From assembly GCA_026398275.1 (NCBI GenBank), contig JAPLTF010000018.1:1-64000 (forward strand): a DNA stretch of 64,000 bases, given 5' to 3'. The translations under genes and the position numbers were made by a program. Of the stretch, positions 38,226 to 51,559 are shown piece by piece. Source of the DNA: Verrucomicrobiota bacterium. GTDB taxonomy: Bacteria > Verrucomicrobiota > Verrucomicrobiia > Chthoniobacterales > Terrimicrobiaceae. Every line of letters begins with the position of its first letter. The stretch's first letter is position 1. The notes beneath the pieces are model-generated. The model did not search any database, had not been told where the DNA came from, and was given only the letters and a program-made list of their open reading frames with translations.

Positions 38226-41200
38226 CTACGCCGGCGGGTCAAGCGGCGGCGGGACGGGCGTCGTCTTCTTCGACCAACCCCGGAAGCACCCGCCTGTGCT
38301 GAAGCGCACCCATGCGAGGCGCAGCCAGCGGAGCAGTGAGGCCGCCAGCCACAACGCCCAGGCCAGCATGAGCAGTCGGAACCACCAGATCGAAACCGAC
38401 AGACAACCGGGCTGCGGAAGGATCTCGCCACACCGGGCCTGATACCAGCGCAGCGCGCTGCGCGTTGATCCGTTGCCGGCGATGAACATCTCGGGATTTC
38501 CCAGAAGCCCCTCGGCTACGACCGCCACGAAGACCCCCAGCGCAATGGCAGTCAGCGCGATCAGCACCACCTGCAATAAATTGAATCCCCACGTCGGCAG
38601 GCGGATGAACGAATCCGTTCCGCGCCACGAGAGATAAAACAGCCAGCCGACCACGAGCAGCGCCGCAGGCAGCGGCACCTGAGTGAGCCCGATCCCGAGG
38701 AGCATCCACTCAGCAATTCCCAGCGGGGAAAATACGAGCCGGCCAAGCATCCAGGCCGCAAGGAGCGAACAGGCCAGCACGGTCCAGAACCGCACCGCCG
38801 GCCCCCGCAGCGGACCATCTGCCCACAGAACCCAGCGGCTGTCGGGGATATTGATCACGGTGTTGATGTTCGCGCTGCCGACCGGAAGCTTCACCTCCTC
38901 GACGCGCGAGCGGATCCCCGACGGCGCGTTGGTTTTCCATTCGACCTGAACGGCCTGCTCGCCCGGACGGAGCGGGACGATCAGGTTGCGCGAATCCATC
39001 CTCGCGGGAATGGCGGCCCCGTTCAGCGTGAGCGAGGTGACCTCCGCATCGGTGGGCAGCGTGATCGAAAAATCCTCTCCCAGACTGCAGCGCAGGCCGA
39101 GGCTCAATACCGAGGTCATCTGCCGCATGCCGGGCGTGACCTCGTGCGTGGCTTTTTCCACGGTGACGGTCGCCCCCGGAATCGCCTCCGGACGGCTGAT
39201 CCCGAGCTTCACGCTTTCGCCCGGCCAGGGATGCCACACAGGCACGAGGTCCGGATTGCCGGGTTCAAACACGGGCGCAAGACCGGATATCGAAACATTC
39301 CAGACAGGCGATGCAACAAGCTGCCAGACTTCAACCCAGGAATCCGCGGCGCCCGCGGCGAGAGACAGCGACGCAGAAGGGCTCAGCTCGCTCTCCCACT
39401 GAAACGCCTCCTGCTGGGCACCGAGCCGGACCTCGATGAGCCCGTCCTTGATTTGTGCGTTCGAGGTCAGCACATTCTCGCCCTCGAGCAGCGGAACGCG
39501 CAGCGCGATCGCCTTGCCGCCGGGCGAGAGCCGGGTCACCGTCGTGCGCACCTGCCAGACCAAGCCGAGCTCGATCCGGCGTTCGACCGAGGCCAGCGCC
39601 GTGAAATCCTGCCGGTCGTAGGCGGCCTCGCCGGGGGTTGATTTCAGGATCTTCGTGAAAAACACCTGCTGGTCCGGAACGCCTTCCGCAGAAACGCCGT
39701 TGACCGTCCACTCAGGCGCCTCGATGACCACCGAGCGCGGCTTGAGAAGAAACGTCCACTCCCAGTCCGGCACATCGGAGAGCAGGCCCGTCACCTTCAC
39801 CTGGTGCACCCCCTGCGGCACGGGAATCCAAAGGTAGCCATCATCGCGGCGCAACGCGGCCGCTGGCTTTCCATCGAGCAGAACCGATCCCGGCGACCAT
39901 GCGGGCAGGCGTCCGGGAAGCGGCACTGCAACGGCAATCGTGGCATTGACCTCGACGTCCATCTCCATGCGGTTGCCCGCGAGTCGCAACGTCGCGCGTG
40001 GAATCGCGGCGGCATTGGGATACGCATCGGAATTCTCCGTGAGCCGGGTGCGCAGAGTGTTGAGTAGCTGCTCGTCCGGCAGCTGGGCATTCGCCGTGGG
40101 TAGAAAAATCAGGAATGCCAGCAGGGCAGCAGGCCGCCCCACGGACGGAACCGCCACGCGCCCCCCGCGCAGCAACAGCCCCGCAAGCCCGAGAACCAAC
40201 GCCACACGCAGGACCGCGAGCAGGCGCTCCAGAGCAATCGGCACCATGACCGGTCGGATGACCTGCGCCGCGGTCACCGGACCGTTCCATCCGAACGACA
40301 CGCTGCGCCATGTCCAGTCCGGAACCCCCGGGCCGGTTTGGATGCGTGCCTTCGTGTCGTAGGTGAGGTTTGACGTGTCTTTTGCTTTATCGGCTCGTCC
40401 CGCCACATTCCTTGACAAAAAATCATAGGAGGAATCACCGGCTACCGGGGCAGCGGGCATGGCCTCGGCGAGAGCCTGATTTGCAACCTCTCCCCGCAAA
40501 GCCACCGGAGCGTCCACAAGCGACGGATGCTCCATCTGCGGATAAATCGCCTGCTGGATCTGGCGGGAGGCGAACGGAACAACGATGAAAATGAAGGCGG
40601 CGATGATGATCCATTTTCCTGCGAGGAGGATCCGTCTCCCCCAGCCTCCCCTGACGACGCGCAACAGCGCGAGCGGGATCAGCAGCCAGAGCCAGATGTA
40701 GCGCGGGGCGCAGGGCTCGTGGTAGGCAAGGCCGAAGGCGACAAAGGCAAGGACCGCCACCCGCCAGCCCCAGAGCTTCCCAACGGCGAGAGAGAAAATC
40801 AGGAGCAGAAAAAGATCGAGGAGCGTCCAGGCAGTCAGCCAGTCGCCCTGGACCCAATCCGCGCCGAAGAGCGCGAACAGCCGCCATCCGGGAGGAAGGT
40901 TCAATGTCACGCGGAGCGCGTCGGCATCGGTCTGCCATCCGCTCGCGGAGATTTTTCCGGTGCGCTCCATGCGGCCCGTCGCCTCGAGGTTGACCGCCCG
41001 GGAACGGATCTCCACACCCGGGGCATCATTCACCGGGCTGCGCGTGATCAACTGCCCGCTGCCATCGCTGCGCACGGATCCGAGGTCCTGTCCTTTGGTG
41101 ACATCGAGCCTCCAGATTTCCTGCATCTGCCCGGTGAGCCGGTCGCGAAATGTGAAAGCCTTTCCATCTTCGTCGAGCCACCACTCGCGGGCAATGCTCA

Positions 41201-42242
41201 GCCCCGCGGGCTTCTGCAGCCCCATACCGCGCATGCGCTCGTCGATGCGGAACGGGGTCGACGTGTCCCAGCGGTAAACCGGGAGCTCGCGCCACTGCTC
41301 GGGAAAGGCAATCTGCGAAACATCCACCGACGGGCTTCCGACGATCTCGACCATGCGGAAATCCGGGCGCGAACGGAACGCGATCAGCTCGTCCGCCGCT
41401 GCGGGTTCGATGCCGGGCGCAAAACCGAATTCCTTCGGGTTATCGAGCCGGAACGCAGAAAATTTCACCGTCCACTTTCCCGGGCGCACCTGCGCCTTCA
41501 TCCGCCCGTCCTCGTCCACGGCCACAGGAATCGGCCCTTCGAGCGAGGCCAGCTTCCAGCCCTGCGGCAGCACGGCGCCCAGCGCCTCCTCGCGGCTTTT
41601 GCCGGAGACGATCAGCTCGACCTCGCCGCGCAGCCAGAGCGGGATCCCGTCCTCGAGCTCAGCGAAGAGCTTCACGGAAAGAAAGTCCTTGTCGGCCTCG
41701 CCGCTCGAGGCATTGCGCTCGAGCCAGAGCTGGCCGGAGGCGTCCCAGAGCGGGTTCTCAACCGGCTTGCCGTCGAGCGTGAGCGTGATGATTCCGACCG
41801 ACACCGGAAGCGCGAGCTTCTGCGGGATCTTTTTCCACTCGATCCCGCCCTCGATCCGGTGGATCCCCGGCTGAAGCTTGACCTCCGGGCGCCCGTCGTG
41901 TTCGACCACCGCCACCGCCGCCCCGTCGGACTTCACACCCTGCGGCCAATGGCCGCCACCTCCCGGAAGCGGAACCCACGACTCGCTGAACACCGATACC
42001 GAAAAATCAAATCGCGCGCCGGTCGTTCCCACGTCGAGCGAGAGCTTCGACGGCCAGAGGCACAGGTGCTTGTCCGCATCATTATACGGAGTCGGGCAGG
42101 GGCGGTGATCCTGCCCCCAGAGCACCCATCCCTCCCATGCGCGGAGCGGCTCGGGTATCCGGGGGTCGGAAGATGTTGCGGCGGATACCACACCGCAAGC
42201 CGCCAGGAGGATCAGAACCGGTGAAAAAACGGAGAGTTTCAT
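38226..42242 (-). CDS. very large multi-domain membrane protein, function unknown
   Basis: A 1338-aa protein. It has a lipoprotein-like or cleavable signal (MKLSVFSPVLILLAACGVVS). About 430 residues of beta-rich extracytoplasmic domain follow (for example YRWDTSTPFRIDERMRGMGL). A group of four or five membrane helices lies near 460-560 and another near 670-715. A second extracytoplasmic beta-rich part is followed by C-terminal helices from about 1160 onward. The Cys in LAAC could be a lipobox. I recognise no named family; similar giant proteins occur beside envelope genes. No partner is adjacent: it is convergent with the metallophosphatase and divergent from the transposase. ATG 42242 gives the signal sequence directly. 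Confidence 0.75.
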   Translation of the reverse strand: MKLSVFSPVLILLAACGVVSAATSSDPRIPEPLRAWEGWVLWGQDHRPCPTPYNDADKHLCLWPSKLSLDVGTTGARFDFSVSVFSESWVPLPGGGGHWPQGVKSDGAAVAVVEHDGRPEVKLQPGIHRIEGGIEWKKIPQKLALPVSVGIITLTLDGKPVENPLWDASGQLWLERNASSGEADKDFLSVKLFAELEDGIPLWLRGEVELIVSGKSREEALGAVLPQGWKLASLEGPIPVAVDEDGRMKAQVRPGKWTVKFSAFRLDNPKEFGFAPGIEPAAADELIAFRSRPDFRMVEIVGSPSVDVSQIAFPEQWRELPVYRWDTSTPFRIDERMRGMGLQKPAGLSIAREWWLDEDGKAFTFRDRLTGQMQEIWRLDVTKGQDLGSVRSDGSGQLITRSPVNDAPGVEIRSRAVNLEATGRMERTGKISASGWQTDADALRVTLNLPPGWRLFALFGADWVQGDWLTAWTLLDLFLLLIFSLAVGKLWGWRVAVLAFVAFGLAYHEPCAPRYIWLWLLIPLALLRVVRGGWGRRILLAGKWIIIAAFIFIVVPFASRQIQQAIYPQMEHPSLVDAPVALRGEVANQALAEAMPAAPVAGDSSYDFLSRNVAGRADKAKDTSNLTYDTKARIQTGPGVPDWTWRSVSFGWNGPVTAAQVIRPVMVPIALERLLAVLRVALVLGLAGLLLRGGRVAVPSVGRPAALLAFLIFLPTANAQLPDEQLLNTLRTRLTENSDAYPNAAAIPRATLRLAGNRMEMDVEVNATIAVAVPLPGRLPAWSPGSVLLDGKPAAALRRDDGYLWIPVPQGVHQVKVTGLLSDVPDWEWTFLLKPRSVVIEAPEWTVNGVSAEGVPDQQVFFTKILKSTPGEAAYDRQDFTALASVERRIELGLVWQVRTTVTRLSPGGKAIALRVPLLEGENVLTSNAQIKDGLIEVRLGAQQEAFQWESELSPSASLSLAAGAADSWVEVWQLVASPVWNVSISGLAPVFEPGNPDLVPVWHPWPGESVKLGISRPEAIPGATVTVEKATHEVTPGMRQMTSVLSLGLRCSLGEDFSITLPTDAEVTSLTLNGAAIPARMDSRNLIVPLRPGEQAVQVEWKTNAPSGIRSRVEEVKLPVGSANINTVINIPDSRWVLWADGPLRGPAVRFWTVLACSLLAAWMLGRLVFSPLGIAEWMLLGIGLTQVPLPAALLVVGWLFYLSWRGTDSFIRLPTWGFNLLQVVLIALTAIALGVFVAVVAEGLLGNPEMFIAGNGSTRSALRWYQARCGEILPQPGCLSVSIWWFRLLMLAWALWLAASLLRWLRLAWVRFSTGGCFRGWSKKTTPVPPPLDPPA

Positions 42243-42307
42243 GGCCCCGACATTGAACATCCCCCAGAGTCCAGATGCCAGTGGAATTTCCGCTTCGTCA
42301 CGCGACT

Positions 42308-42331
42308 GCAGCAGCGCCCGTGTCGGGCGCT
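42308..42331 (+). repeat. single REP palindrome (family 1) upstream of the RAYT gene
   Basis: GCAGC followed by AGCGCCCG-TGT-CGGGCGCT, an 8-bp stem with a 3-nt loop. It is the same REP type as at 8762, 42898 and 42948, and lies 70 bp before the assigned RAYT start. Confidence 0.8.
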
Positions 42332-42400
42332 TGGATTTCAGACCGCTTCAGTGTATTCTTTCATTGCCTGTCGCGGCATTCGTTCGACAGACATTTCCGT

Positions 42401-42859
42401 ATGTTGCGAAGATTCCCAAGCCGGCCGCCACGTTTGACGCTTTTTCAAAATGTGCACCCATTTTATTTCATCACCTTCAACACACGTCATCGGAAACCGG
42501 CATTGGCAAACGACTCCATCCACCAGGCATTTTTGCAGTTTTGCCTTCGCGCGGAGTCGGAGCATGCCATTGCTGTCGGACGATATGTCATCATGCCGGA
42601 TCACATTCATTTTTTTGTTTTTCTTCCTGATCAGGGAATTCGCCTGTCCCGCTGGGTAGGTCAGCTCAAGCGGGCGATAGGGGTTTCATCTATCGACCCC
42701 TTTCAATGGCAGGAAGGATTCTTCGATCACATCTTACGCAGCGCGGAGAGCTACTCGCAAAAATGGGATTACGTGAGGCGTAATCCGGAGCGCGCAGGAT
42801 TGTGTGACAATGCGGATGATTGGCCATGGCAGGGGGAAATTGTGAGGGTTGAGTTCTGA
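42401..42859 (+). CDS. REP-associated tyrosine transposase (RAYT, Y1/HUH family)
   Basis: A 152-aa protein. PFYFITFNTRHR opens the Y1 fold. VIMPDHIHFFV (63-73) holds the HxH metal site (His68, His70). WDYVRRNPERAGLC (122-135) carries the candidate catalytic Tyr124. RAYTs nick and rejoin REP hairpins as single strands and are thought to spread REP and REPIN elements. Palindromic REPs flank the gene (42308-42331 and 42898-42971). The gene is AT-richer than its surroundings. ATG 42401 is chosen because the fold starts soon after; an ATG at 42275 would read through the upstream REP. Confidence 0.88.
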   Translation: MLRRFPSRPPRLTLFQNVHPFYFITFNTRHRKPALANDSIHQAFLQFCLRAESEHAIAVGRYVIMPDHIHFFVFLPDQGIRLSRWVGQLKRAIGVSSIDPFQWQEGFFDHILRSAESYSQKWDYVRRNPERAGLCDNADDWPWQGEIVRVEF

Positions 42860-42986: not shown

Positions 42987-43907
42987 CTACTTCGCCGCCA
43001 TCACCAGCAGCGTCTGAAAATGCGGTGCCTCGGGCTCCCGGGAGACAATCGATGACTGGATCTTTGAAAATCCCGCCCGCTTGAGCATCTGGTGAAGCTC
43101 GATCTCGACGAACCCCAGCCAGACGTGCGCGTAAAGCTCGCGGGCCTGCTCGAAGGTGTGGCTGGCGAGATCGAGGATCACAATCCGGCCTCCGGGTTTC
43201 AGCGCACGGCATGCGGCCGCCAGTGCCCGCGCCGGGTTCGGCACGTGGTGCAGCACCTGGCTGAATATCACGAGGTCGACCGACTTGGGCTCCACCGGAG
43301 GATCTTCCACATCCCCGAGCCGGTAATCGATGTTCTTGAACCCGTGCTCGCGCGCCAGCGAGGATCCGAACTCGACCATCTTTTCGGAGTTGTCCACCGC
43401 AATCACCTTTTTCGCCGTGCGCGCCAGCAGCTGCGCCAGCGTCCCCTCGCCCGCCCCCATGTCGGCGATCACCATCGGGGGCAGCAGTCCGAGCAGCGCG
43501 TGGGAGAGCGCCTCCCACGACCGCCCGGGCACGTAAACCCTGCCGAAGCGCCCGGCCAGCTTGTTGAAATACTCGGAGGCGCGGTCCTTGCGCTTTCTCA
43601 TCGTCAGCGCCAACGCCGACAGGTCCCGCTGCGCCTCACGGACCTCGGACCGGGCACATTTCAGGATCCCCCCGACCATTCCGCCGGATTCCTCCTTCGC
43701 GGAATAAAAAATATTTTTTCCCACCCGGCGGTCGGCGGCGAGCCCCTCGCGCTTCAGCTGGCCGAGGCTCGCCGAGATCCGCGACTGCGCCATGCCGAGG
43801 ATCTCCTGCAACTCCGCCACGGTCAGCTCCTCCTCGACGAGCAGCAGCATGAGCCGCAGCCTCGTCGGGTCGGACAGCACGCGCAGAGAATTTATTGTTG
43901 ACGCCAT
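42987..43907 (-). CDS. ArsR-type regulator fused to an AdoMet-dependent methyltransferase
   Basis: A 306-aa fusion. Residues 1-90 are an ArsR winged helix (LRVLSDPTRLRLMLLLVEEE, LTVAELQEILGMAQSRISAS, LGQLKREGLAADRRVGKNIF). Residues about 115-300 are a class I methyltransferase with VIADMGAGEGTLAQLLA (motif I), VDLVIFSQVLHHVPNPARAL and LKPGGRIVILDL. It is divergent from metK-ahcY across 62 bp holding a palindrome, so I infer it senses AdoMet or AdoHcy through the methyltransferase-like domain and represses the AdoMet cycle, as SahR-type regulators do in Proteobacteria. Whether it keeps catalytic activity is unknown. Confidence 0.87.
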   Translation of the reverse strand: MASTINSLRVLSDPTRLRLMLLLVEEELTVAELQEILGMAQSRISASLGQLKREGLAADRRVGKNIFYSAKEESGGMVGGILKCARSEVREAQRDLSALALTMRKRKDRASEYFNKLAGRFGRVYVPGRSWEALSHALLGLLPPMVIADMGAGEGTLAQLLARTAKKVIAVDNSEKMVEFGSSLAREHGFKNIDYRLGDVEDPPVEPKSVDLVIFSQVLHHVPNPARALAAACRALKPGGRIVILDLASHTFEQARELYAHVWLGFVEIELHQMLKRAGFSKIQSSIVSREPEAPHFQTLLVMAAK

Positions 43908-43969: not shown

Positions 43970-45166
43970 ATGTCACGCCGTTATATTTTTTCCTCCGAAT
44001 CCGTTGGCGAAGGCCATCCCGACAAAGTTTGCGACACCATCTCCGACGCCATCCTCGACGCCTGCCTCTCCCTCGACCGCACGAGCCGGGTCGCCTGCGA
44101 AACCTTTGTCAAAAGCAACATGGTCGTGGTCGGCGGCGAGATCACGGTGCCCCGCCTGAAGGGGGCCTCGCTGGACTCCGCCCTCAACATCGGCCAGATC
44201 ATCCGCAAGGCCATCCGCGAAATCGGATACGTCAACGACGATGACGTCTTCCACGCGGACCGGGTCTTCATCAACAACTACCTCACCAGCCAGAGCCCGG
44301 ACATCGCCCAGGGCGTCGACGCCAAAGCCGCGGCCGGCAAGGGCACCGAGGAGCAGGGCGCGGGAGACCAGGGCCTCATGTTCGGCTACGCCTGCAATGA
44401 GACTCCGGAGCTCATGCCGGCCCCGATCATGTTCGCCCACCGCCTCGGTCGCGAGCTCACCCGCATCCGCAAGAGCGGCAAGGTCAAATGGCTCCGCCCC
44501 GACGCGAAGAGCCAGGTCTCGGTCCTTTACCAGGACGGCAGGCCCGTCCGCGTGACGAACGTCGTCATCTCGACCCAGCACACCGACGACGTGAAGAACG
44601 ACGAGATCCGCCGGTTCCTCATCGCCAACGTCATCCGCAAGGTCATCCCGAAGGATTTCCTCGATGCCACGACCGAATTTCTGATCAACCCGACCGGACG
44701 GTTCGTGGTCGGTGGCCCGCAGGGCGACTCCGGGCTCACCGGACGCAAGATCATCGTGGACACCTACGGCGGCATGGGCCGTCACGGCGGAGGAGCGTTC
44801 TCCGGAAAGGATCCTTCAAAAGTCGACCGCAGCGCCGCCTACATGGGCCGCTATGTTGCGAAGAACGTTGTGGCCGCCGGCCTCGCAGACCGCTGCGAGG
44901 TCCAGTTCGCCTACGCGATTGGACACCCGAATCCCGTGAGCATCCACATCGACACGTTTGGCACACACAAGGTGGACGAGGAGAAAATCGAGCGCGCCGT
45001 CTCGTCGGTCTTCAGCTTCAAGCCGGCCGACATCGTGAAGCAGCTCAGCCTCCTCCGCCCGATCTACTCCAGGACCACGAACTACGGACACTTCGGCAAA
45101 GACGATCCCTACATCACCTGGGAACGCACCGACAAGGTCTCGGCCTTGAAGAAGAGTATTAAGTAA
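43970..45166 (+). CDS. metK: S-adenosylmethionine synthetase
   Basis: A 398-aa enzyme making AdoMet from methionine and ATP. The opening [20 protein letters not shown] contains the catalytic His and Asp. [12 protein letters not shown] (residues about 129-140) is signature 1, and the glycine-rich [20 protein letters not shown] is signature 2. [20 protein letters not shown] is also typical. Length is normal. It precedes ahcY by 6 bp, forming an AdoMet-cycle operon, and is probably controlled by the divergent ArsR-methyltransferase through the palindrome at 43921. Confidence 0.97.
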
Positions 45167-45172
45167 GTTTTT

Positions 45173-46675
45173 ATGAAAAAATCCCGCTCCGCCACAGCTG
45201 CGGCCGTCCTCGCCGAGGTCGCTGCCGCCACCGCCAATCTCGCCAAATATTCCGCCGCCACGCCGGCCGGAAAGGACTACATCGTCTCCGACATCGCGCT
45301 CGCCGACTGGGGCCGCAAAGAAATCAGCGTGGCCGAGCACGAGATGCCGGGCCTGGTTTCGCTCCGCAAAAAATATGGCAGGGAGCAGCCGCTGAAAGGC
45401 GTCCGGATCACCGGCTCTCTGCACATGACAATCCAGACGGCGGTCCTCATCGAGACGCTGGTTTCCCTCGGGGCAACCGTCCGCTGGGCAAGCTGCAACA
45501 TCTTCTCCACGCAGGACCACGCCGCAGCGGCGATCGCCGCGACGGGCACGCCGGTCTTTGCCTGGAAGGGCGAGAGCCTTGAGGAATACTGGGAGCTCAC
45601 GCTCAAAGCCGTCACCTTCCCCGGCAACCTTGGCCCGCAGCTCGTCGTCGATGACGGCGGAGATGTGACGCTCCTGATCCACAAAGGCTACGAGCTCGAA
45701 AAAGGCGACAAGTGGGCCTATCAGCCGAGCGACAACCACGAGGTCTCGGTGATCAAAGCCCTGCTCCGCCGGGTGGCCAAGGAGCGCCCCGGCTTCTGGA
45801 CCAAGGTCGCCAAAGCCTGGAAGGGCGTCTCCGAAGAGACGACGACCGGCGTCCACCGACTCTACCAGATCGCCGAACAGGGCAAGCTCCTCGTCCCGGC
45901 GATCAACGTCAACGACTCGGTCACCAAATCGAAATTCGACAACCTCTACGGCTGCCGCGAATCGCTGGCGGACGGACTCAAGCGCGCGACCGACGTGATG
46001 ATCGCGGGCAAGGTCGCCGTCGTCTGCGGATACGGCGACGTCGGCAAGGGCAGCGCCCACTCGCTGCGCGCCTACGGGGCCCGTGTCATCGTGACCGAGA
46101 TCGACCCGATCAACGCCTTGCAGGCCGCGATGGAGGGCTTCGAGGTCAACACGATCGAGAGCACGCTCGGGGTCGGCGACATCTATGTCACCACGACCGG
46201 CAACAAGGACATCATCACCCTCGAGCACATGCTCGCCATGAAGGACCAGGCGATCGTCTGCAACATCGGGCACTTCGACAACGAGATCCAGGTGGACCAG
46301 CTCAACAAGTGCAAAGGTGTCCGCCGCGTCACCATCAAGCCGCAATACGACCGCTACTTCCTGCCCGGCGGCAAGAAGAGCATCTACATGCTCGCCGAAG
46401 GACGCCTCGTGAACCTCGGCTGCGCGACCGGCCACCCGAGCTTCGTGATGTCGAACTCGTTCACCAACCAGACCCTCGCGCAGATCGACCTCTGGCAGAA
46501 CAAGGACAAATACAAGAAGACCGTCTATCGCCTGCCCAAGAAGCTCGACGAGGAAGTCGCCCGCCTCCACCTCGGCAAAATCGGGGTCGTCCTCACAAAG
46601 CTTTCGAAGTCGCAGGCCGAATACCTCGGCGTGCCGCTCGAAGGCCCCTACAAGCCCGAGCATTACCGGTATTGA
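45173..46675 (+). CDS. ahcY: adenosylhomocysteinase
   Basis: A 500-aa NAD-dependent enzyme that splits S-adenosylhomocysteine into adenosine and homocysteine, removing the product inhibitor of methyltransferases. [20 protein letters not shown] opens it. [20 protein letters not shown] lies in the insert typical of the longer form. [20 protein letters not shown] binds [17 protein letters not shown] and the C-terminal KPEHYRY are hallmark ends. The first 25 residues ([20 protein letters not shown]) are an extra Ala-rich leader; a later start is possible. It is cotranscribed with metK. Confidence 0.96.
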
Positions 46676-46784: not shown

Positions 46785-47975
46785 ATGAGAAAACAGTCCT
46801 CCGGGCACCCCTCCGCGCTTGGTCCGACCTCGGCCGGAATCCGTCCGCCGGGGCGATCCGGCCACATCGCCAAGCGGATTGTCGCGGCGAGCGCCAAGCC
46901 TCCGGCCCCGGAGTTCTCGTTCCGGCTCAAACCGCAGGAGGTGTCCCGCCATCTGAGCCGGTTTGTCATCGGGCAAGCGGAGGCGAAAAAGGTGCTGAGC
47001 GTGGCGCTGTGCGATCATTTTCAGCATGTCCGGCTCACGCTCGCCGGCAAGCCAGCCCCGTTCTATCAAAAGCAGAACGTCCTGATCCTCGGGCCGACGG
47101 GCGTCGGAAAGACCCACCTGATCCGCTCGGCGGCGGATTTGATCGGCGTGCCGTTTGTGAAGGCCGACGCCACAAAGTTCAGCGAGACCGGCTACGTCGG
47201 CGGGGACGTGGACGACCTCGTGCGCGATCTGGTGCGGCGTGCCGGCGGGGACGTGAAGCGCGCCTCGCATGGCATCATCTATGTGGATGAGATTGACAAG
47301 CTCGCCACGCGGTCCGGGGGCGGGGGCCGCGACGTCTCCGGCCGGGGTGTCCAGACGAATCTGCTGAAGCTCATGGAGGATGGTGATATCCCGCTCATCT
47401 CGCCCAACGATGTGAACGCGCAGATGCAGGCCGCGATGTCGGCGGCCCGCGGGCATTCGCCGGGCGGGCCGGACACCATTTCCACCAGCAGCATCCTCTT
47501 CATCGCAAGCGGGGCGTTTTCCGGCATCGAGAGCCTCATCCGGAAACGCACGAACCGGTCCCCGGCCGGGGCCCTGCTTTCCTCCGTCACAACAGCCGAC
47601 CTGATCGCCTTCGGGCTCGAACCCGAATTCATCGGACGCCTCCCCGTGCGAGTCGCCTGCCACGGGCTCGATGAGGACGCCCTCTTCGATGTCCTGCAAA
47701 AAAGCGAGAGCAGCCTCATCCACCAGTACGTCCGCGCTTTCGCGGCTTACGGCATCACCCTGCGCTTTCAAAACGATGCCCTGCGCGCGCTGGCAGCGCT
47801 CGCTAAAACCGAGGAGACCGGTGCACGCGGGCTCATGACCGTCATGGAGCGCGTTTTCCGCGATCTCAAGTTCCGCCTCCCCTCCACCCTCATCCGCAGG
47901 CTGACCGTGACGGCAGCGCTGGTGGCCGATCCTGCGGGCGGGCTGCGCGAACTCCTGCGCAAGACAAGAGCCTGA
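46785..47975 (+). CDS. ClpX-like AAA+ unfoldase lacking the zinc domain and ClpP loop
   Basis: A 396-aa AAA+ protein. [17 protein letters not shown] (Walker A 103-110), pore loop GYVGGDVDD (136-144), [15 protein letters not shown] (Walker B), [12 protein letters not shown] (278-288) and sensor 2 [14 protein letters not shown] all match ClpX. The N-terminal C4 zinc domain is absent, replaced by a 45-residue basic Ser/Pro-rich leader. Between [12 protein letters not shown] and [16 protein letters not shown] about 20 residues are missing where ClpX carries the IGF loop that docks ClpP. It probably remodels proteins without feeding ClpP. It is a separate transcript after ahcY (109-bp gap). Confidence 0.85.
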
Positions 47976-48349: not shown

Positions 48350-51300
48350 TTATGCACCCTCCGGTCGGACGCGCTGGAGCACCTCCGCAAGATCTTCGAC
48401 CCGCAGCGGCTTTGAAAGGATGTGGTCCATGCCGACGTCCATGCAGGCGTCACGGTCGCGTTTCATGACATTGGCGGTGAGCGCGCAGATGAACGTGCGG
48501 GCATTCTTGCTGCCGGATTTTTCGCGCCTGCGGATTTCCCGGGTGGCCATGAAGCCGTCAACCTCCGGCATGTGCAGGTCCATGAAAATAATATCGTAGG
48601 CATTTTTCCGCGTCTGCTCGAGGCATTCGCGGCCGTTGGCGGCCTTGTCCGCGCGGTGGCCGAAGTCCGAAAGCAGGCGGAGCGTCAGCACCTGGTTCAT
48701 GGGAATATCCTCGACCACGAGGATCCGCAATGCCTGCCGGGAGGACAGATCCGACTTCAATTCCGAGGCGGCGGATGTCGTCTGAAGCATCGGCGGCGGC
48801 GCGGCCTGCGCAGGCAGGGTGAAGTGGAATGTCGATCCCGTTCCCTCCACGCTCTCGGCCCAGATTCCCCCCCCCATGAGCGAGATCAGGCTCTTGCAGA
48901 TGGCGAGCCCGAGCCCTGTGCCGCCGTATTGCCGGGTGGAGGAAGCATCGACCTGACTGAAGGGCTTGAAGAGCGAGTCCAATTTATCCGGAGGGATGCC
49001 GATCCCCGTGTCGGTGACAGAGAACCTCAAAAGCTGATCGCCGGGGTTCGCGTCGTCCGGAGCCGGTTCAACACCGACGCGAATCTCCACCGAACCGGTC
49101 TCGGTGAACTTCACCGCATTGCCAATCAGGTTGATGAGGATTTGCCGCACACGGGTATAGTCCGCGGTGATCCACTCCGGAACCGCCGGGTCAACGACGG
49201 CGGTCAAGCCGATGGGCCTGAGCCGCTCGGGTGCGCAGAGTGCGACCGCCTCATCGACACAGTCGCGCAGCTCGAATGGCCGGGGATCGAGCTTGAACAT
49301 GCCGGACTCGATCTTCGAAAAATCGAGGATGTCGTTGATGATGACGAGCAGGGCCTCTCCGCTCGTGCAGATCGTCTGGACGAACTCCATCTGCTCCTCG
49401 CTGAGCGGTGTGGATTTCAGGATGTTCGCAAACCCGAGCACTCCATTCATGGGGGTGCGAATTTCGTGGCTCATCACGGCGAGGAACTCGCTTTTTGCGA
49501 GGTCCGCAGCCTCCGCCGCCTCCTTGGCCTGCCGCAGTTGGATTTCCACCCTCTGGCGCTCGAGGAGCGAGGCGGCCAGATCGTTCACCCGCTGCTCCAG
49601 GCTCTGGTTCACCTCGGTAAGGTCTTTCCTGGCCTCCCGCAGTCCTTCGCGCGCATGGCCCAGCCCGTCGGCCCCGCGGGCGATCTCGGTCTGGAGAATA
49701 TTGAAGCTCTCCGCCATCTCCCCGACCTCATCCCGGGAATTTGCGACCACCGGCTGGATATCCACCCGGGCATGGGCGGCATCCAGATCGCCGCGTCCCA
49801 GCGCCTGCATCGCGCTGGAAAAATCCGCCACCGTTCCGGAGGCGAGCCGCCTGGCTGCGGCGGACACCTCAACGGCCGAGTGCGCGATCATTCCGGGCAG
49901 CACGAGCCCGACCGAGATCGTGAGCATCGCCACCGCCACGAAAATGTCCTCGAGCGCCGCCAGTTGCGACAGGTCCGAGGGATCCACGCTCTTCACTGCG
50001 ATCAGATAGCCGACACCGTCGAGGATCAGGACCAGAAGCATCGCCCCGGTGAGCTTGATATGGAGCGAGCGGGCGATTCCGGGCAGGCCGGCTTTGCGCC
50101 GGTCGGAATATTTTCTCCACGCGTAGAGAGCAGCGCCCGAATAGGCGAAGACCAGGCCGATCAGCACGGTGGGCAGGCCGAACTGCTGGAACCCCAGGAT
50201 GGCGGTCACGCCCCAGATGCACGCCGCCAGAACGCCGAGCCCGATAAAACCGCGCGGAGCCCGGTAGGGCCGGCGCATCCCGGGCTGGTCTCCGCGCAGC
50301 AGCCAAACCGCCACGCTGGGCAGTCCGATGCTGATCAGATACGTGAAGTTGGCGGAGGCGATCAGCCAGATCGGATCGCCGATCAGTAAAAACCAAATGG
50401 CGAACGCCGCGGTCAGGCAGGTCGCCGTCCATGGCACGTCGGTGCGGGATCGCCAGCTGAGAAACTCGGGGAGCAGGCCGTCTTCGGAAAGCTGGGAGAG
50501 CGTTCGCGAGGCTCCGGCCAGCGGCTGCAGCGTGCCGTGAAACATGTTGAACATCATGAACCAGATCGCCGCCGCCTTGGCCGCGCTGCCCAGCACCGGC
50601 GCGAAGGTGGGCCCCAGCACGAGCATCAGATCCTTGCCAAGCTCCTCCGGCCCAAGGACACCCAGCCAGACGACCGGCAACACGATAAAATAGACGGCGG
50701 CCATCAGTGCGCTGGCCAGCATCGCGCGCGGCACATTTTTCTCCGGATCAATCGTCTCGCCCACGTGGCAGGTGGCGGCCTCGAATGCCGGCGCGGCAAA
50801 GCCGATCAGGTAGAGCCCGGCCATCGCGCTCGTCAGGGCCCCGAACCATCCGGGAAACGGAAGCGTGAGGTGAAACGTGCTGGCCTGGTGCCAGTCCACC
50901 TTTCCGGCGAACACCGGAGCAAGGGACGAAATAAACGCGAGCATCGCGGACATGGCGGCGATGGGGATCGCCAGCCGCGCAGCCCACTGCACCCCCATCA
51001 GGTTGACGCCGGTAAACAGGAGCACGATGCCGCAGGCCATCACCGGGACCGGGATGCCGGGCAGATACCATTCGTGAATCGCCGCGGAGGAAAGCAGCGC
51101 GGTCAGCCCGCAGGTCGGCACCCATCCCCACCAGTAGCAGACGCCCGTGAGGTTCGCCAGCACCGGGCTGTAGGGCTTGAAAGCCTGGGAGCAGGTCGCC
51201 GCAATTCCGCCGACACGGTTCGGATACATCATCACGAGCTCCAGCCAGCCGGGAGCGGCGGCCCAACTCAGCAGCAGCCCCACAATCAACAATGGCACAG

Positions 51301-51559
51301 CCGCGCTCCCCTGACCGGAGATGGCTCCCTGGCCGACAAACAGCGCAGTGATTAAAAAAAGGCTTTGATTGCTGCCGCCCATTGCCAGCGACGTCGTGCC
51401 GACCCAGCCGATCCGGTGCGGATGCGGGCGTTGCACCTCAGGAGGCAGATCCGATCCGGCAGACACTGGGTTTGGTTGCGTGGGTCCGTGGTTCACAGTG
51501 CGGGGATCGTTCCGATCACGGGGATCCGTGGTTTTTCTTCTCCACATCCCCCGGAACAT
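48350..51559 (-). CDS. APC-superfamily amino-acid permease fused to a hybrid sensor histidine kinase
   Basis: A 1069-aa fusion. Residues about 50-480 form an amino-acid/polyamine permease with 12 or so helices (WVGTTSLAMGGSNQSLFLI, FAAPAFEAATCHVGETIDPE, GASRTLSQLSEDGLLPEFLS). Two more helices at 500-560 lead to a HAMP-like linker and coiled coil (565-690). Then HisKA with VMSHEIRTPMNG (His698), HATPase with NLIGNAVKFTE, DTGIGIPPDK and GTGLGLAICKSL, and a receiver with acidic ILVVEDI and phosphoacceptor Asp994 in IFMDLHMPEVDG. It probably senses an amino acid by transport or binding. No separate output regulator is adjacent. The N-terminal 45 residues are polar and the true start may be later. 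Confidence 0.9.
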   Translation of the reverse strand: MFRGMWRRKTTDPRDRNDPRTVNHGPTQPNPVSAGSDLPPEVQRPHPHRIGWVGTTSLAMGGSNQSLFLITALFVGQGAISGQGSAAVPLLIVGLLLSWAAAPGWLELVMMYPNRVGGIAATCSQAFKPYSPVLANLTGVCYWWGWVPTCGLTALLSSAAIHEWYLPGIPVPVMACGIVLLFTGVNLMGVQWAARLAIPIAAMSAMLAFISSLAPVFAGKVDWHQASTFHLTLPFPGWFGALTSAMAGLYLIGFAAPAFEAATCHVGETIDPEKNVPRAMLASALMAAVYFIVLPVVWLGVLGPEELGKDLMLVLGPTFAPVLGSAAKAAAIWFMMFNMFHGTLQPLAGASRTLSQLSEDGLLPEFLSWRSRTDVPWTATCLTAAFAIWFLLIGDPIWLIASANFTYLISIGLPSVAVWLLRGDQPGMRRPYRAPRGFIGLGVLAACIWGVTAILGFQQFGLPTVLIGLVFAYSGAALYAWRKYSDRRKAGLPGIARSLHIKLTGAMLLVLILDGVGYLIAVKSVDPSDLSQLAALEDIFVAVAMLTISVGLVLPGMIAHSAVEVSAAARRLASGTVADFSSAMQALGRGDLDAAHARVDIQPVVANSRDEVGEMAESFNILQTEIARGADGLGHAREGLREARKDLTEVNQSLEQRVNDLAASLLERQRVEIQLRQAKEAAEAADLAKSEFLAVMSHEIRTPMNGVLGFANILKSTPLSEEQMEFVQTICTSGEALLVIINDILDFSKIESGMFKLDPRPFELRDCVDEAVALCAPERLRPIGLTAVVDPAVPEWITADYTRVRQILINLIGNAVKFTETGSVEIRVGVEPAPDDANPGDQLLRFSVTDTGIGIPPDKLDSLFKPFSQVDASSTRQYGGTGLGLAICKSLISLMGGGIWAESVEGTGSTFHFTLPAQAAPPPMLQTTSAASELKSDLSSRQALRILVVEDIPMNQVLTLRLLSDFGHRADKAANGRECLEQTRKNAYDIIFMDLHMPEVDGFMATREIRRREKSGSKNARTFICALTANVMKRDRDACMDVGMDHILSKPLRVEDLAEVLQRVRPEGA

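Follow-up and report, generated by a model that had tools for sequence, protein, structure and literature searches.

The sequence analysed here (the window) is the first 64,000 nucleotides of contig JAPLTF010000018.1 from a Verrucomicrobiota bacterium of the family Terrimicrobiaceae (assembly GCA_026398275.1), and the gene of interest encodes an AAA+ ATPase related to ClpX. A first-pass annotation, made from the letters alone, had placed a ClpX-like unfoldase at 46785-47975 of the forward strand, and an open reading frame (ORF) of 396 amino acids was located there. Three classes were distinguished among its relatives: the window-like clade A, the B-type proteins (approximately 40-60% identical), and class C, which is canonical ClpX. 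The gene and the relevant parts of its product are as follows.

46785..47975, forward strand: gene of the clade A ClpX-like AAA+ ATPase (ATG at 46785, stop codon included; 396 amino acids)
46818..46838, forward strand: leader motif LGPTSAG (residues 12-18), conserved in clade A and predicted to be disordered (predicted local distance difference test, pLDDT, below 50)
47091..47114, forward strand: Walker A motif GPTGVGKT (residues 103-110)
47190..47201, forward strand: pore-1 loop GYVG (residues 136-139)
47286..47300, forward strand: Walker B motif DEIDK (residues 168-172)
47328..47354, forward strand: pore-2 loop region RDVSGRGVQ (residues 182-190)
47412..47447, forward strand: predicted helix (residues 210-221) in the position of the RKH loop of ClpX, common to clade B (alignment and model)
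47520..47606, forward strand: shortened loop (residues 246-274) at the site of the IGF motif of ClpX and clade B
47625..47639, forward strand: EFIGR with the box VII arginine (residues 281-285)
47820..47828, forward strand: sensor 2 GAR (residues 346-348), within GARGL

The window protein matched the Pfam family AAA_2 and the ClpX profiles TIGR00382 (271.5 bits) and NF003745 (299.4 bits), in both cases under the curated cut-off (370.75 and 359, respectively), and its closest relatives of solved structure are ClpX chains. An AlphaFold2 model built from a 60-row alignment had a mean pLDDT of 87.4, residues 1-4 and 7-39 being below 50. The top structural match of this model was an integrative ClpX model (Z 37.3), and ClpX crystal chains matched at Z of about 35 with a root mean square deviation of about 2 over approximately 300 residues, HslU coming next (Z of about 29). 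The predicted fold is that of ClpX. The AAA+ motor motifs (Walker A and B, the GYVG pore loop, EFIGR and GAR) are kept in 28 of 28 clade A rows, including the deeper relative L159, in agreement with the earlier statement that the pore loop, Walker motifs and sensor 2 are intact, and clade A proteins are only about 35-42% identical to the canonical ClpX rows.

The ClpP-docking loop was delimited by the GAF and EF[IVM]GR anchors and compared by multiple alignment together with these motif anchors; pairwise phmmer alignments break or slide at the docking loop and were therefore not relied on there. The segment from AF to EFIGR is 42 residues long in the window protein, 56 in the canonical ClpX of its own genome and 58 in Escherichia coli ClpX. 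The first-pass annotation was right about the absence of IGF, while its estimate of a loop about 20 residues shorter has to be reduced to 14-16. An [ILVMT]GF motif was found in none of the 27 clade A loops and not in L159, as against 43 of 44 clade B loops (the exception is L163) and all 20 canonical ones. Loop lengths vary from 23 to 67 residues in clade A, from 37 to 44 in B and from 40 to 47 in canonical ClpX. The possibility that an IGF motif was concealed by misalignment was discarded after the multiple alignment and the motif-anchored comparison. Variants of the IGF residues and altered loop length weaken ClpP binding in ClpX, according to published work (PMC7112951). As judged from the aligned sequences, both the docking motif and the constraint on loop length are gone in clade A.

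Nonsynonymous (dN) and synonymous (dS) divergence was calculated by the Nei-Gojobori method (NG86). In close clade A pairs dN/dS was 0.026/0.215 (L047/L048), 0.007/0.170 (L019/L021), 0.034/0.686 (L022/L025) and 0.014/0.376 (L028/L030), which corresponds to ratios of about 0.04-0.12. For the window gene the values were 0.156/1.29 against L018, 0.211/1.54 against L019, 0.209/0.95 against L047 and 0.265/2.87 against L049, with dS near or past saturation, and dS was not computable against L022. These rates indicate that clade A is under purifying selection. Because the motif is absent from every clade A loop and present in nearly all B and all canonical ones, and because dN is far below dS in the close pairs, its loss reads as the result of neither chance nor decay.

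The loss of the docking motif coincides with that of a second lid domain. Beyond EF[IVM]GR, 197-278 residues remain in complete clade B proteins, compared to 108-122 in clade A, 109 in L159, 107 in L163 and 113-120 in three canonical ClpX proteins. According to hhalign, the C-terminal extension of the B proteins duplicates the small AAA+ lid domain in tandem (the shorter B extension aligns at probability 98.0 and E 2e-13 across 80 columns, the longer one at 97.3 and E 1.6e-11). Among 97 rows, 67 have both the docking motif and the second lid, 29 have neither and none is mixed, giving concordance in 96 of 96 scorable rows; L079, cut by a contig end, was unscorable for the extension. The 29 rows with neither feature represent 28 distinct ones, as L058 is identical to L021 in the compared region, and the B rows taken from the phylum survey are the best-scoring loci, not all of its 108 genomes. 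Places already counted (L180-L182, L187, L188, L196, L197 and L051, the last being the place of L028) were omitted. A frameshifted remnant of the extension behind the clade A genes or L163 was also considered, and tblastn with eight extension sequences gave nothing directly downstream; its matches were mainly to the proteins' own lid domain, with scattered weak ones in addition.

Clade A comprises 27 loci, all in Verrucomicrobiota, and the B proteins occur in Verrucomicrobiota, Desulfobacterota-type hosts, Calditrichota and one Desantisbacteria metagenome-assembled genome (MAG). The window protein was assigned to clade A by its lack of the IGF motif and of a second lid, by its leader motif GPx[TSA]xG and by its place in the tree. 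In a wider contig scan, of which the best 80 loci were retained, the top 12 were from MAGs, mostly with Verrucomicrobiota-type titles, at 61-73% identity. Matches were found in 25 of 26 genomes of the window's family, in 107 of 117 genomes of its order (E <= 1e-40) and in 108 of 383 genomes of its phylum (E <= 1e-85). Only two of these 108 (G000, the window's genome, and G016) have the A type, as judged by score and open-frame length, and by this sequence survey A is rare and B is common. A, B and canonical ClpX occur together in G013 and G016.

The trees cited here are quick ones, built without the loop and the extension. Clades A and B form one clade against canonical ClpX (100 in the Shimodaira-Hasegawa-like approximate likelihood ratio test, SH-aLRT). 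Within it, A and L159 group together (SH-aLRT 99), with L184, a B protein carrying both the motif and the second lid, as the sister (91); L159 is on a long branch and its placement is unsure. L163 groups among the B proteins of its order, and only three of the 40 genomes of its family (G039, G040 and G136) also match at E 1e-75, all of them keeping motif and extension. The tree demands two changes for each trait, which amounts to two joint losses; a paired trait test rests on no more than two independent pairs, perhaps on one, so significance is unreachable in it. Since clade A is nested beside L184, the docking loss is secondary and took place in what was probably a partner of ClpP. The C4 zinc domain is absent in clade A and in the aligned B rows and the RKH motif throughout A and B, and the sequences place the loss of IGF and of the second lid later, in A. 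The losses of C4 and IGF, which the first-pass annotation had named side by side, are separate events, as B proteins without C4 still carry IGF. The sequence record extends that annotation: the docking motif was lost secondarily, throughout the lineage and in step with the second lid.

The absence of the C4 domain, claimed earlier, was borne out: the first 70 residues of the window open frame contain no cysteine, the profile alignments start only at position 68 of TIGR00382 and position 60 of NF003745, and no Pfam zinc-domain match to the protein was obtained. An overlooked upstream zinc domain was ruled out, as the open frame begins just 11 codons before the ATG. No cysteine pair was found upstream of the core in the clade A rows (L023 and L032, cut by contig ends, were not counted), and the lack of the zinc domain in B was read from the translations and Pfam matches of four proteins. 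The leader, described before as basic and rich in Ser and Pro, also holds a motif that had been overlooked, [LPI]GPx[TSA]xG, present in 25 of 27 clade A rows, the remaining two being cut at contig ends. Its conservation within a stretch predicted to be disordered suggests a docking peptide. The replacement of the RKH motif had also been overlooked: RKHP occurs in all 20 canonical rows, but in none of the 28 clade A rows (L159 included), none of the 43 B rows and not in L163. In A and B this site is taken up by a longer segment, predicted to include a helix (residues 185-198 in a B model). The same work (PMC7112951) states that an E. coli ClpX with RKH changed to AAA did not support the degradation of an ssrA substrate; because of this and of the missing RKH, A and B presumably do not recognize the ssrA tag as ClpX normally does.

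The window's genome is 98.7% complete in 117 contigs. A standard clpX with clpP, which the first-pass annotation had proposed to look for, was found on contig C52, where clpX (610 bits) lies directly downstream of clpP; the preceding ORF, judging by its end, is presumably a trigger factor gene. The window gene is therefore a paralogue and not the only clpX of its genome; its being the only one had been named as contradicting the prediction. Other proteins of this genome matching PF07724 are other Clp ATPases, none of which is a closer relative. The HslV/proteasome family (PF00227, E 0.001) had no match in this genome, as compared with matches in 10 of 14 controls. A second, weaker ClpP-family ORF of 200 amino acids (L015, contig C90, 7799-8293) lies beside an ORF resembling, by eye, a conjugation-type ATPase.

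Among the named records bearing A, 8 of 11 have a match above the clpX cut-off. Within the window's family 16 genomes bear A, and all of these except G024 have a canonical row or fragment (partial in G018 and G022); in G024, which is 64% complete, a follow-up search found a short N-terminal canonical fragment. ClpP counts in 16 genomes gave one copy each in the A-bearing G004 and G013, two in G005, which has B and no A, and two in G016, which has both. Two genomes of about 0.916 Mb, each a single contig and 99% complete (G123 and G124, with loci L161 and L162), which resemble the nematode symbiont Xiphinematobacter, encode ClpP, two large Clp ATPases and one B-type protein with VGF; canonical ClpX was not found in them, so that B, as the only ClpX-type protein found beside ClpP there, is a testable ClpP partner. 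G107 and G108 have ClpP and no ClpX-type match at E 1e-15.

Two ORFs precede the clade A gene in the window.

43970..45166, forward strand: metK, S-adenosylmethionine synthetase-like ORF (named from the sequence by recall)
45173..46675, forward strand: ahcY, S-adenosylhomocysteine hydrolase-like ORF, 110 bp upstream; candidate operon partner

The ahcY gene is directly upstream of A in the window, in L050 (about 80 bp) and in L054 and L057 (about 12 bp from the start taken for A), preceded by metK in the first three, and lies 2.3 kb upstream in L049; this makes 4 of the 23 inspected A rows, or 5 if L049 is counted. Given this gene order, AhcY is a candidate client. Three other loci (L128, L129 and L135) have a HIT-family gene adjoining A and a divergent hemB, and hemB also lies close to A in L058. 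Pfam matches identified AdoHcyase in L054, ALAD in L064 and L129 and HIT in L129, the remaining neighbours being named by eye. The B gene is followed by hemB in nine Desulfobacterota-type loci (L064, L067-L072, L077 and L078), mostly after a two-component pair that we take to be NtrYX-like. Mitochondrial ClpX is linked to heme via 5-aminolevulinate synthase (ALAS); a heme link is not claimed here, as hemB does not adjoin the window gene and the cases in A are few and closely related. In Verrucomicrobiota the B loci adjoin genes for an adenylate-cyclase-like membrane protein (9 rows) or a protein kinase (5 rows), and in L137 and L139-L142 the B gene lies between the two. Within the window, an ORF at 42990-43907 (reverse strand), divergent from metK-ahcY, fuses an ArsR-type helix-turn-helix to a methyltransferase domain, and a gene of the ArsR-methyltransferase cluster adjoins metK in L050 and L054 also. 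An ORF at 42275-42859 (forward strand) resembles, by eye, a small transposase of the type associated with repetitive extragenic palindromes. The ORF at 38229-42260 (reverse strand; 1344 amino acids) is membrane-protein-like by eye, with no Pfam match at 1e-5, and that at 48353-51559 (reverse strand; 1069 amino acids) is a transporter-sensor fusion of an amino-acid permease with HAMP, histidine kinase and receiver domains.

With moderate confidence, we favour the explanation that the clade A proteins are unfoldases or remodelling machines of the ClpX type that work without ClpP, by a logic like that of yeast Mcx1. The retained motor motifs, the loss of IGF together with the length constraint, the unmixed pairing of docking motif and second lid, the nesting of A beside L184, the purifying selection, the separate clpX and clpP, the lack of an HslV match, the ClpX fold and the Mcx1 precedent all argue for it. 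The earlier prediction of an unfoldase working by itself or with a different partner is partly supported, in that the docking loss is specific, lineage-wide and secondary and the motor is under purifying selection. A zinc-less B-type lineage with the [ILMV]GF loop and a second lid would have lost both jointly on the branch to A. The resulting hexamer, by homology with ClpX, would thread clients through the GYVG pore and make no stable contact with ClpP. Clients might be selected via the GPx[TSA]xG leader motif and the helix replacing RKH, not via the ssrA tag, and the product would be a remodelled or disassembled client, not peptides.

Several points weigh against this explanation. No neighbour gene is common to all the clade A loci viewed, hence no client is indicated; ClpP contact via the pore-2 loops or another surface is compatible with a missing short motif; and many bacterial ClpX paralogues could be redundant. 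Moreover, three of the eleven named A-bearing MAGs (G512, G513 and G514, of L049, L050 and L052) show only the A copy and no canonical ClpX, which would fit either A having taken over the work of ClpX there or incomplete MAGs, and which also speaks against a simple spare paralogue.

One rival is that A remains a partner of ClpP, or of the genome's second ClpP-family protein, through contacts other than IGF. The presence of both proteins, the kept pore-2 motif and the three MAGs just mentioned speak for it, but docking motif and loop length are both lost in A and no dedicated ClpP accompanies A in the 16 genomes counted, so we consider it unlikely. It is also improbable that A serves another partner protease or effector, docked via the leader motif or the remodelled loop: the conserved motif in the disordered leader and the helix at the RKH site would suit such a role, whereas no proteasome/HslV-family match was obtained in the genome and no peptidase neighbour is conserved in the clade (L050 alone has an M61 peptidase after A). 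Mixed hexamers of A and canonical ClpX, in which fewer docking loops would tune or block ClpXP, have little probability: the two share fold, motor and genome, but their identity is low and the three MAGs show A alone. A decaying or non-functional paralogue, which the lost docking loop and its variable length might suggest, is hardly credible, as dN is well under dS in every pair with computable dS and all tested motor motifs are kept.

Beyond the ClpP-free reading of clade A, we tentatively propose that a second ClpP-partner ATPase was converted into a protease-free remodeller at least twice (in A with L159, and in L163) by the joint loss of docking loop and second lid. The second lid would then be a protease-coupling part, and A would correspond in bacteria to Mcx1, with a leader motif of its own to engage a client or adaptor; where ahcY adjoins, A might act in the S-adenosylmethionine cycle, through AhcY.

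Among known systems, HslU (ClpY) resembles the window protein at the structural score given above and at 201.5 bits to TIGR00390; the HslU identity was discarded, because this score is far under the cut-off of 362.45, with the match split into three stretches, and no HslV was found in the genome. Canonical ClpX (TIGR00382; chains such as 8e91, 4i34 and 3hws) is the closest in structure, but the window protein lacks its zinc domain, RKH and IGF, scores below its cut-off and lies outside the clpP-clpX locus. The B-type proteins, defined here, share with A the lack of RKH, the replacing helix and a common clade against canonical ClpX, and differ in keeping [ILMV]GF and the tandem second lid. An extra ClpX of Myxococcus xanthus, ClpX3 (MXAN_2743), whose deletion impairs growth at 36 degrees C, is described as having neither the N-terminal domain nor the RKH motif (PMC11423568) and may be related to B. 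Literature listings gave no paper on an IGF-less bacterial ClpX paralogue or a tandem lid, which does not prove that none exists. Canonical ClpX with zinc domain, RKH and IGF, the B type with IGF and second lid but without RKH, and A, lacking both IGF and the second lid, form a natural series on one scaffold, and the three types within one genome (G013, G016) would allow the parts of a ClpX-type motor needed for proteolysis to be told apart from those needed for remodelling. The nearest parallel to A is Mcx1 of yeast mitochondria, which has a ClpX-type motor with no IGF domain and is thought to be purely an unfoldase, free of ClpP (PMC10886707, PMC8361296). Mcx1 activates ALAS, and its host has no ClpP, whereas the window's genome has ClpP and canonical ClpX; the two presumably arose independently, and clade A would offer a bacterial setting for ClpX function without ClpP.
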